A stretch of 64,000 nt of DNA, taken from assembly GCF_002873335.1 (NCBI RefSeq), contig NZ_MCUW01000012.1, forward strand, positions 348,840-412,839. The letters are read 5' to 3'. Shown here one piece after another: positions 46,203 to 56,888 of this stretch (position 1 is the first letter of the stretch; every line of letters begins with the position of its first letter). Origin of the DNA: Vibrio sp. 10N.286.49.B1. GTDB taxonomy: Bacteria > Pseudomonadota > Gammaproteobacteria > Enterobacterales > Vibrionaceae. A program made the position numbers and the translations under genes. A model generated the notes under the pieces. The model was not told where the DNA came from, ran no database searches, and worked only from the letters and a program-made list of their open reading frames with translations.

Positions 46203-46287
46203 AGTATGTTCCTTTTTTAATATGGCCCGAGGCGTACCTGCGAAGCTCCAAATGACTTTATTAATGTTCATTGATCTAAATCAACGA

Positions 46288-51524: not shown

Positions 51525-51932
51525 ATGTACGATGGTTCAAAAACTCTTCACCTCAATAAACATGTATCAACGACACAAAACATCCCTGCTTCGTTAGAAA
51601 GTAAGTCGCTTATCCAAGCAGAAAATGTACAAATAAATCAACACTATCCCGACATATTGTCATCAAAATGTCACGTGGCGTTTCACACAGGATTCGAGGA
51701 TTTCGAAGTCGAATTAACAGTACATCTTGATAATCAGTCAATATTTATCATTCGAACTGACAGCGACGCAAATACTGCGATAGAAGACGCCTTTCAAGCG
51801 CTCACACACAAACTCACTCAGTATGATAATAGACAAAAAGTAAAACAGCGCCTTTTCAAGCATTGTCGCGCTCTATTTCAGCGACTAGGGTTGGCTCCGG
51901 TGTCTTCACCTATCAAGAGTACTCGATATTGA
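51525..51932 (+). CDS. S30AE-like (ribosome-hibernation type) protein, degenerate
   Basis: 135 residues. The segment PDILSSKCHVAFHTGFEDFEVELTVHLDNQSIFIIRTDSDANTAIEDAFQALTHKLTQYDNR resembles the beta-strand plus helix of the HPF/RaiA (S30AE) domain, but the first strand-helix is poor and the protein has an extra basic C-terminal tail. Relatives bind and protect idle ribosomes. The ATG at 51525 has no ribosome-binding site and abuts the upstream terminator hairpin, so translation may start later or expression may depend on the hairpin. Could be a divergent functional paralogue or a decaying gene. Confidence 0.55.
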   Translation: MYDGSKTLHLNKHVSTTQNIPASLESKSLIQAENVQINQHYPDILSSKCHVAFHTGFEDFEVELTVHLDNQSIFIIRTDSDANTAIEDAFQALTHKLTQYDNRQKVKQRLFKHCRALFQRLGLAPVSSPIKSTRY

Positions 51933-54713: not shown

Positions 54714-56888
54714 CTAGTTGACGTTAACGTTCTGGTCACGCTCATCATACATATCTGGTGTGGTGTGTAACCCCCCCGTATAACCCGCTTTTTCTAAGGT
54801 CTCACGCACTTGCTTGACCTGCTCGGCAGTAACGGCTGACTCGCGCGCCCCCAAATGTAAGCGAACAAATGAGATGAGTTCTGATAACGCTGTATCCGAT
54901 AACACGTCATCAAAGCTCACCATTGGCATAAAGTTTCTTTCTTCATCTAAATAGGTTGGCTGCAGTCCTCTTAAGGTTACCGCGATTGTATTGAATGGAT
55001 CACTATGCATAATAATGCCGTTATTTAGCAATGTAGGTGCTATAGGATCGCGTCCCTTACCATCCTCGCCATGGCAAGCGCCACAGGTTTGATTGTAAGT
55101 AGCGTAGGTCTCATCAGCGTACGCGGCTTCCGTAAAACCAGTAGGCTTCAAGGTCACCGCCCTACTTTCGATGACATTATTTTTGTCTCCCATCAACAAA
55201 TAATAAGACATTGACTCGATGTCTTCTCGCGTCATCAAACTCAAGCTATTTTTCACAACGTCGGCCATCCCAGCGAAAGCTGAACCCTTATCAGAATGCC
55301 CTGTATGTAAAAAATCAGATAGTGTTGATTCATCCCAACCATCAACGAATAATTCATTAGCGCTGATATTGGGGGCATTCCAGCCATCAATTAGGTTGCC
55401 TTGAAAAATCCTATCCGTATCGAGTGCCTGTGCGATATTTCTCGGCGTGTGACACTCAGAACAATGTCCCAACCCTGCCACCCAGTACTTTCCCTTTTTC
55501 CATTTATCAATATCGTCGATATTGCTTTCGAGTTCAGCAGGAGGTGTGTACTCCAACTCGGCGGTGTCCATAAAGACTATGTTCCAACCCAATAATCCCA
55601 ATCGAATGTTCGAAGGGAACATCATCTGGTTTTGATCGTTTTGCCGCGAGACCGCGTCGATTGATTGCATGTACTCCCACAAATCATGCATGTCTTGATC
55701 ATTAACATACTGATAAGAAGTATACGGCATAGCCGGATACAAATAACCGTGCTGTCCTTTACCATCCACTAGCGCCGCTTCAAAATCTTCAAATGAATAG
55801 AGACCAATCCCTTCCGTTGTATGTGGGGTAATGTTCGTTGAATAAATTGTACCAAATGGGGTCACAAATGGCAGGCCACCAGCAAAGGGTTCTCCCCCTT
55901 CTGCGCTGTGACAAGCGACACAATCACCTGCGTGGGCAAGGTATTCGCCTCGCTCCACTGACTCAGGATCCAACCTCGCGAGTTTCGCGTCTTCGTCCAA
56001 TCTGGACTTAGTCATGTAGGCCCCGAGTGCCAAAATTTCATTCGATGTAAGCTGTTGTCCAAACGCCGGCATCACGTTATTAAGCCCGTTTCTAATCGTG
56101 TGCTGAATCTCCTCTATACTGCCTCCATGAAGCCAGATACTATCGGAAAGATCAGGGACGCCAAGCTGTGCATTGGCAACGGAACCGTCACCGTGACACG
56201 ATGAACAGTATTGAATAAACAGTTCTTTGCCTAATGTCACTTTTACTGCTGGAACGTCTGTATGTCTTTGATTCAATGACGCCAAGTAATAAGACATTTT
56301 GGCAATATCATCGGGTTTGATTGCATCGACCCAACCCGGCATCGCCCCGTTTCGTCCTTGTGTAATAGAATGAATAATGGCTTCATCATCGCCGCCATAT
56401 AACCATTCATTGTCAATCAAGTTAGGGAAGTGCTTCGCCCCTTGCGCATTATTGCGGTGGCAGGCTGCACAATGCGTTTGGAATAAAATTCGCCCCGAAT
56501 CAACCACCACATCGTTTAGTGCTAATTCCGTAAAGTTTTTCTCCGGTATTTGCGCCATTTGTTCATCAAGATTGGTGCTCACACTACTGAGTTTGTCATC
56601 GCTTTGTTTCCAATCGACGAGTCCTTGCCAGTTCCCCATGCCTGGGTACAGGATTAGGTACCCAACAGAAATTGAGAACGCGATAAAGTAAGACACAAAC
56701 AGAATCTTAGGCGGAGGGGCGTCATTTTCATCAATACCATCAAAGGTCCCTATGGTTTTGTTTTCATTAGCACTGTGGTTATTTCGCCAATATTTGATCA
56801 CGACCACAACCATCAGCACGAAGAATACACAGGTTCCTATGACGGCCCAAAGATTCCAAAATACACTCATTTCATTGCTGTCCATCAC
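54714..56888 (-). CDS. ccoP: Fused cbb3 oxidase subunit CcoP with dehydrogenase-type triheme cytochrome
   Basis: 724 residues with five CxxCH heme motifs. Residues 1-95 are the CcoP anchor (two helices around TFDGIDENDAPPPK and YLILYPGMGNWQGL); hemes at C140-H144 and C228-H232 complete the CcoP part. From about 310 to 705 the chain looks like the cytochrome subunit of membrane-bound alcohol/gluconate dehydrogenases (AdhB type) with hemes at C323-H327, C476-H480 and C602-H606, and landmarks RGEYLAHAGDCVACH, TPFGTIYSTNITPH, MQSIDAVSRQN. The start overlaps ccoO by 4 bases (ATGA). Such a chain could pass electrons from a periplasmic dehydrogenase straight into the oxidase; inference. Confidence 0.88.
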   Translation of the reverse strand: MMDSNEMSVFWNLWAVIGTCVFFVLMVVVVIKYWRNNHSANENKTIGTFDGIDENDAPPPKILFVSYFIAFSISVGYLILYPGMGNWQGLVDWKQSDDKLSSVSTNLDEQMAQIPEKNFTELALNDVVVDSGRILFQTHCAACHRNNAQGAKHFPNLIDNEWLYGGDDEAIIHSITQGRNGAMPGWVDAIKPDDIAKMSYYLASLNQRHTDVPAVKVTLGKELFIQYCSSCHGDGSVANAQLGVPDLSDSIWLHGGSIEEIQHTIRNGLNNVMPAFGQQLTSNEILALGAYMTKSRLDEDAKLARLDPESVERGEYLAHAGDCVACHSAEGGEPFAGGLPFVTPFGTIYSTNITPHTTEGIGLYSFEDFEAALVDGKGQHGYLYPAMPYTSYQYVNDQDMHDLWEYMQSIDAVSRQNDQNQMMFPSNIRLGLLGWNIVFMDTAELEYTPPAELESNIDDIDKWKKGKYWVAGLGHCSECHTPRNIAQALDTDRIFQGNLIDGWNAPNISANELFVDGWDESTLSDFLHTGHSDKGSAFAGMADVVKNSLSLMTREDIESMSYYLLMGDKNNVIESRAVTLKPTGFTEAAYADETYATYNQTCGACHGEDGKGRDPIAPTLLNNGIIMHSDPFNTIAVTLRGLQPTYLDEERNFMPMVSFDDVLSDTALSELISFVRLHLGARESAVTAEQVKQVRETLEKAGYTGGLHTTPDMYDERDQNVNVN

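Follow-up and report, generated by a model that had tools for sequence, protein, structure and literature searches.

A cbb3-type oxidase operon of Vibrio sp. 10N.286.49.B1 encodes a CcoP subunit with five heme c motifs, in which the CcoP sequence is continued by a triheme cytochrome module of the kind found in dehydrogenases. The gene lies in the window, by which we mean the whole 64,000-nucleotide stretch of DNA that was analysed. This five-heme CcoP with its dehydrogenase-type triheme module is real. As to its role, the sequence and gene-neighborhood comparisons presented below make it on balance probable that the attached triheme is an electron-input module, which would pass electrons from a periplasmic dehydrogenase to the cbb3 oxidase.

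One Open Frame Encodes a CcoP with Five Heme Motifs

The fused gene is one open frame on the minus strand (Table 1), and the same stretch read on the plus strand contains many stops. The frame opens with GTG (56888) followed by ATG (56885). The latter shares one base with the stop codon of ccoO (TGATG) and has a AGAGGGGG run upstream of it, and because of this overlap and this run it is the likelier start. The five CxxCH motifs of the protein compare with a mean of 0.005 and a maximum of one in 5,000 shuffles of its sequence. The motifs are invariant, and an invariant methionine is a candidate ligand for each heme (M183, M273, M387, M541, and M654 or M656). Third-position GC is about the same in both halves of the gene (0.473 vs. 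0.466).

A first-pass annotation of the window had described one chain with CxxCH motifs at C140, C228, C323, C476, and C602. These positions are exact, and the strand, for which it gave nothing, is minus. It had also called the first part of the chain CcoP-like and the last 400 residues AdhB-like. Both assignments were borne out: the first part scored above the cut-offs of the profile models TIGR00782 (194.7 bits; cut-off 179.95) and FixP_N (32.3; cut-off 24.9), and ∼395 residues match cytochrome subunits of dehydrogenases, as described below. The usual CcoP/FixP pattern, with two heme c and ∼300 residues, does not describe the fusion, which has five CxxCH motifs in 724 codons; a two-heme CcoP of 324 aa is also encoded in the same genome.

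Structure prediction, which the annotation had proposed as a check, gave a confident single-chain AlphaFold2 model in which both modules are predicted to be folded and helix 281 to 303 continues into helix 307 to 319. The input for this model was 110 mixed rows; 38 fused sequences alone led to a pLDDT of 55, and the resulting model was discarded. The 24-residue tail of the fusion is polar and stands where FdhC and AdhB have a hydrophobic C-terminal segment.

Table 1. Coordinates, in the window, of the fused gene, its modules and heme motifs, and the other genes of the operon
Feature	Position	Strand	Details
Fused five-heme CcoP ORF	54714..56888	-	GTG 56888; 724 codons; from the likelier start ATG 56885, 723 aa
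CcoP module, residues 1-297	55998..56888	-	helices 8-38 and 60-79; FixP_N; two heme domains (C140/Met183, C228/Met273)
CxxCH 1, CAACH, residue 140	56457..56471	-	
CxxCH 2, CSSCH, residue 228	56193..56207	-	
Triheme dehydrogenase-type cytochrome module, residues 306-700	54789..55973	-	C323, C476, C602; Met387, Met541, Met656
CxxCH 3, CVACH, residue 323	55908..55922	-	
CxxCH 4, CSECH, residue 476	55449..55463	-	
CxxCH 5, CGACH, residue 602	55071..55085	-	
C-terminal tail, residues 701-724	54717..54788	-	partly conserved; low pLDDT
ccoO, monoheme subunit, 202 aa	56885..57493	-	FixO Pfam 1.5e-59; NF011055 230 (cut-off 218)
ccoN, catalytic subunit, 476 aa	57495..58925	-	GTG start; TIGR00780 594.2 bits (cut-off 583.15)
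Small monoheme cytochrome c, 124 aa	58931..59305	-	apparent signal peptide; first operon gene; ATG 59305 after AAGGA

The Fused Gene Closes a cbb3 Operon

On the minus strand, the gene order is small cytochrome c, ccoN, ccoO, and fused ccoP. This is the coupled ccoN–ccoO operon that the annotation had described, with the gene for a small monoheme cytochrome c added in first place; the ORF of the latter, as listed, extends to 59401. CcoO scored 196.6 with the equivalog model TIGR00781, slightly below the cut-off of 200.65. CcoN matches 3mk7_A at 1.3e-171, and an alignment with 9g6b_A indicates that it retains the conserved histidine motifs, which we take to be ligands. Judged from its sequence, the oxidase is of the cbb3 (C-family heme-copper) type and a working one.

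Regulation of the fused operon by an FNR-type protein was considered and set aside: the best site at the window's own locus has two mismatches. A one-mismatch site is present in 4 of the 57 related loci, and one mismatch or none was reached in 2.7% of shuffles. Elsewhere in the window, a perfect FNR-type palindrome, TTGATCTAAATCAA, lies at 46271 to 46284, distant from the cbb3 operon; FNR-type sites with at most one mismatch number 11 in the window, compared with 4.6 expected. A gene with a Ribosomal_S30AE (hibernation factor) domain is located at 51525 to 51932.

The Fusion Is Conserved in Several Genera

Among the 120 top homologues listed, which come from several genera and all have E = 0, 118 span at least 97% of the chain. 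Matches to the fusion were found at 57 loci, in Vibrio, Photobacterium, Aliivibrio, Shewanella, Psychromonas, and one genome labelled Vibrionales, and the five-motif frame is intact in 53 of them. The operon is conserved along with the gene (small cytochrome c in 56, ccoN in 55, ccoO in 57, and the fused gene in 56 of the 57 loci), and among the 40 commonest neighbor clusters no further neighbor occurs in more than 20 loci. Four loci gave no five-motif frame and are outside the 56 fused sequences used for spacing: L059, at a contig end, and L050, L051, and L052. The latter three are from Vibrio variabilis/V. maritimus; the lengths of their matches are indivisible by three, and the frame looks broken or the sequence faulty.

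The distribution is patchy. In the order-level survey, 17 of 394 genomes and 4 of 114 genera have the fusion (E ≤ 1e-100), while the class-level survey of 369 genomes returned it in the window's own genome only (E ≤ 1e-85) and the phylum-level survey in 5 of 398 genomes (E ≤ 1e-70), all of the window's own genus. The remaining matches of the phylum survey span the triheme part only; ten triheme matches lie within frames of 660 to 1,037 codons and start at query residue 280 or later. More distant five-motif members, 42 to 55% identical, are present in the protein collection and include one Gammaproteobacteria MAG and one Photobacterium sequence. All 22 fused sequences used in two trees form one group, which fits a single fusion event.

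The spacing between the motifs of hemes 2 and 3 is 95 residues in 56 of 56 fused sequences and, among nine more distant sequences, 95 in six and 93 to 94 in three. This nearly fixed distance suggests a fixed electron-transfer geometry between the two hemes, which is measurable. The triheme part is the better conserved portion of the chain, with 44 to 52% invariant positions compared with 34 to 35% in the CcoP heme domains (54 sequences, the divergent L101 and L102 being excluded); junction residues 297 to 307 include no invariant position.

Thus, the fused gene is not an assembly error or a readthrough that joins two genes. The annotation had argued against readthrough and had named misassembly as the finding that would overturn it. 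We looked for misassembly and found near full-length homologues and constant spacing, which, together with the equal third-position GC and the confident single-chain model, refute a DNA artefact and make its probability negligible.

The C-Terminal Module Is Related to the Trihemes of Periplasmic Dehydrogenases

The last ∼395 residues of the fusion match cytochrome subunits of glucose, fructose, alcohol, and aldehyde dehydrogenases, the PDB matches being 8hdd_B (6.4e-61), 7w2j_C, 8gy2_B, and 8gy3_A. As in these AdhB/FdhC/AldF-type subunits (8gy2_B, 7w2j_C/8jej_C, 8hdd_B, 8gy3_A), the module has the three-heme dehydrogenase-type fold, with its three CxxCH motifs at matching positions. AdhB- and FdhC-type cytochromes are separate subunits of their dehydrogenases, whereas the module here is fused to CcoP and is missing the hydrophobic C-terminal segment; its alignment to FdhC (486 residues) stops at ∼440 to 445. 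The highest PDB scores belong to FAD- and PQQ-dependent enzymes. Lower Foldseek and VIA-align rows (nitrite reductase, c6, and others) were taken as single-domain likeness and rejected.

Standalone trihemes from related genomes place the module in another context. The only one in the window's own genome is 41% identical to it and is preceded by genes for a Mo hydroxylase large subunit and a 2Fe-2S protein and followed by an XdhC-like gene. The eleven top-scoring standalone trihemes from 295 genomes of the order all follow Mo large-subunit and 2Fe-2S genes, and the lower-scoring ones fetched occur alternately with Mo hydroxylases and with FAD (GMC) dehydrogenases. In tree 1, the fused module and the Mo-associated rows are separated from the GMC/PQQ rows with support of 98/97, with 8gy3_A, the cytochrome of a solved Mo aldehyde dehydrogenase and a long branch, on the GMC/PQQ side. 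The same division received 100/100 in tree 3, from which 8gy3_A and OTH_L144 had been removed; OTH_L144 had been assigned to the GMC rows in trees 1 and 2 although its upstream gene encodes a cytochrome. The fused module falls inside the Mo group in tree 1 (88/95) and in tree 2, in which 56 standalone rows carry the Mo label with no check of their partner genes, and outside it in tree 3. An AU test of its nesting within the Mo group gave P = 0.132.

Candidate Electron Donors

A Mo hydroxylase operon adjoins the fused operon in two genera, in two different arrangements. In Psychromonas marina, a complete operon and the fused gene converge, with 377 bp between them. In Photobacterium profundum ATCC BAA-1252 (L049 461–5174), genes for a Mo hydroxylase, a 2Fe-2S protein, a triheme, and a partial XdhC are divergent from the small cytochrome gene of the fused operon, 450 bp apart. 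Unlike AdhB/FdhC-type genes, the fusion thus has a dehydrogenase operon at its side in only 2 of 57 loci; since each of the two includes its own standalone triheme, the hydroxylase need not use the fusion. Among 13 fusion genomes, a standalone triheme at E ≤ 1e-40 is absent in 10 and present in three, whose Mo hydroxylase, having a triheme of its own, need not use the fusion either. A further case is a one-contig genome that is Shewanella by genus label (G213). Its Tat-type Mo large-subunit and 2Fe-2S genes (L186 5818–9281), whose products share 65 and 66% identity with their P. marina counterparts, have no triheme gene alongside, and the CcoP fusion is its only triheme match (E ≤ 1e-40). The same genome has two more Mo hydroxylase gene sets, one of them followed by a protein with two CxxCH motifs.

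A Tat-type hydroxylase was found in 4 of 17 fusion genomes and in 1 of the 20 fusion-free genomes used for comparison. Only a xanthine-dehydrogenase type of ∼800 aa is present in 11 of the 17, and neither type in two; the Tat motif is absent from the four xanthine-dehydrogenase-type N termini that were read from these 11 genomes. Neighbor clustering and searches with Mo, GMC, and PQQ references revealed no conserved dehydrogenase neighbor across the 57 loci (the clustering covering the 40 commonest clusters, with six of the neighbors scanned), and no GMC or PQQ reference match lies beside the fusion in any of them. An NAD-type aldehyde dehydrogenase (PF00171) near 7 of the 57 loci is an ordinary cytosolic-type enzyme and was rejected as a candidate. 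The only near-constant partner of the fusion is the small cytochrome c of its operon.

The annotation had proposed a PQQ- or flavin-dependent dehydrogenase as the partner. Full-length PQQ matches occur in 2 of the 17 genomes with the fusion and in 2 of the 20 lacking it, and their length fits the membrane glucose dehydrogenase; there is thus no association with the fusion, and we discarded the PQQ partner. The flavin partner kept some ground: 15 of the 17 genomes with the fusion and 13 of the 20 without it have GMC matches, and two or more are present in 10 of 17 vs. 4 of 20. However, the three GMC N termini inspected by eye have no signal peptide, and a flavin (GMC) dehydrogenase is weakly placed as the donor.

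Sister Oxidases Carry Four-Heme CcoPs beside Dehydrogenase Genes

In a CcoN tree, the fusion type (11 sequences) and a type with four-heme CcoP (5) stand apart from 25 others with support of 100/100; these 25 were assumed to be canonical, and a two-heme CcoP was confirmed for five of them. The window's own genome has an operon of the four-heme type (L061 6196–10748), which lies ∼3.4 kb beyond the end of the window and ∼8 kb past the fused operon. It consists of ccoN, ccoO, and a gene for a 484-aa CcoP with four CxxCH motifs, whose C terminus is a cytochrome c4-like diheme, followed by a TsdA-like gene (5lo9_A, 232 bits; Pfam SoxA-TsdA 21.6, below the cut-off of 27). In four genomes that probably belong to Moritella (G144, G087, G157, and G049; loci L177 to L180), a second cbb3 operon with a four-heme CcoP is followed by genes for a SorA-type sulfite dehydrogenase and a diheme cytochrome. 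The SorA-type protein matches 2blf_A with 410 bits in one genome, and those of the other three are 91 to 98% identical to it. The CcoP extension of this group is also cytochrome c4-like, and its four-heme CcoP shares 83% identity with a protein of Shewanella psychropiezotolerans. A protein of different build, P0132 from Marinicella (517 aa), appears to repeat the CcoP heme-domain pair and so has four CxxCH motifs.

A paper on Halomonas (PMC9237845) describes TsdB as an electron acceptor of TsdA and c4 cytochromes as donors of cbb3, and considers that TsdB might itself supply the oxidase. The location of the sister oxidases beside genes for thiosulfate or sulfite dehydrogenases strengthens the reading of direct electron input.

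A Proposed Electron-Input Module and Its Alternatives

Given the four-heme sister operons beside dehydrogenase genes, the role that best accounts for the fused triheme is, on present weighing, that of an input module. Electrons would enter at the triheme from a periplasmic donor and might pass from heme 5 to heme 4, heme 3, the two CcoP hemes, CcoO, and finally CcoN and oxygen, so that no soluble carrier and, as far as that substrate is concerned, no bc1 complex would take part. The C-terminal heme of homologous dehydrogenases lies closest to their catalytic subunit. As the ancestral donor, a Mo hydroxylase exported by the Tat pathway, of either the aldehyde-dehydrogenase or the isoquinoline-oxidoreductase type, is most likely; such an enzyme may still be the donor in P. 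marina, P. profundum, and one Shewanella. In most vibrios, some other enzyme or the operon's small cytochrome c would have to serve; 13 of 17 fusion genomes show no Tat-type hydroxylase. The suggestion of the annotation that a dehydrogenase could feed cbb3 directly stands in its core, as direct input is the best reading and gains from the sister operons, but no conserved dehydrogenase neighbor accompanies it in the 57 loci. Its further suggestion, that this happens without bc1, found no support: cytochrome c1 is present in all 37 genomes (17 with the fusion and 20 for comparison), and the Tat-type hydroxylase is missing from the 13 fusion genomes just mentioned.

These last observations would also suit a triheme that acts as a general docking antenna, accepting electrons from the small cytochrome c encoded in the operon, the gene for which is present in 56 of 57 loci, and from other soluble cytochromes, including those fed by the bc1 complex; the 10 of 13 genomes without a standalone triheme (E ≤ 1e-40) fit it as well. 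We nevertheless consider such an antenna rather doubtful, as a complete dehydrogenase-type triheme of ∼395 residues, more conserved than the CcoP domains, is a superfluous fold for a plain antenna, and the genes that adjoin the sister oxidases are those of specific dehydrogenases. In acetic acid bacteria, trihemes of the dehydrogenase type and ubiquinone exchange electrons at the surface of the membrane, and the Gluconobacter alcohol dehydrogenase reportedly has a ubiquinol-oxidising site. By analogy, the fused triheme, held at the membrane by the CcoP helices, could oxidise ubiquinol and make the cbb3 oxidase independent of bc1. Homology to 8gy2_B, 7w2j_C, and 8gy3_A, which pass electrons to quinone, speaks for this, as do two fusion genomes (G287 and G219) in which MoCoBD_2 is unmatched. 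The loss of the hydrophobic C-terminal segment, with the alignment ending near residue 445 of the 486-residue FdhC and a polar tail in its place, makes a quinol oxidase unlikely.

The extension could, finally, work in the opposite direction and deliver respiratory electrons to a periplasmic reductase, a role suggested for the Neisseria tri-heme CcoP, whose c5-derived third heme domain belongs, in the excerpted text of PMC2924362, to a pathway able to reach NirK/AniA. An output of this kind seems very improbable here: neither a reductase nor any other neighbor outside the operon is found in more than 20 of the 57 loci among the 40 commonest clusters, the trihemes homologous to the module work with dehydrogenases, and TsdA and SorA are the neighbors of the sister oxidases. 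TsdA-type enzymes can, however, also reduce tetrathionate (PMC5146829).

Extending the input reading to the related oxidases, we put forward, as a tentative proposal that may well prove wrong, a cbb3 subfamily of dedicated dehydrogenase oxidases in Vibrionaceae, Shewanella, Psychromonas, and probably Moritella, whose CcoP subunits would have captured lineage-specific acceptor cytochromes. The captured modules would be the triheme of a Mo hydroxylase, a c4 cytochrome beside a thiosulfate dehydrogenase, and a c4 cytochrome beside a sulfite dehydrogenase. On the same tentative footing, a covalent heme chain would join periplasmic oxidation to the oxidase, with neither bc1 nor a soluble carrier in between.

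Discussion

The fusion is a new addition to the extended-CcoP cytochromes already known from Neisseria. Among the titles and abstract openings listed by searches of the open-access literature, none concerns a CcoP with five hemes or with a dehydrogenase-type module. The tri-heme CcoP of Neisseria, as the excerpt of PMC2924362 presents it, is a fusion with cytochrome c5 that is linked to nitrite reduction. Like it, the protein described here carries a natural C-terminal c-type extension that would alter its periplasmic partners; in contrast to the one added c5 heme of Neisseria, which is proposed there to feed NirK, three dehydrogenase-type hemes are added here, five in total. An engineered c1–CcoP–cy fusion of Rhodobacter capsulatus yields a tripartite complex that has, in the excerpted text of PMC7876108, QH2:O2 activity without an added carrier. 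It too has a cytochrome c domain on the C terminus of CcoP, but, unlike the natural fusion here, it is man-made, adds one heme, and is also joined to bc1. The logic of the TsdA/TsdB pair (5lo9; excerpt of PMC9237845) is mirrored in the sister operon of the window's own genome, with its c4-like CcoP extension beside a tsdA-like gene, and differs from the fusion in the window in both module and donor.

The bacteria concerned are common in the sea and include many marine Vibrio and some relatives. If our reading is correct, they would possess a natural single-chain heme wire that connects a periplasmic substrate with a high-affinity oxidase, with the bc1 complex bypassed for that substrate. The fusion also points to a cbb3 subfamily in which the input modules of CcoP have been exchanged, so that the pairing of donors with cbb3 oxidases would be testable from sequence.
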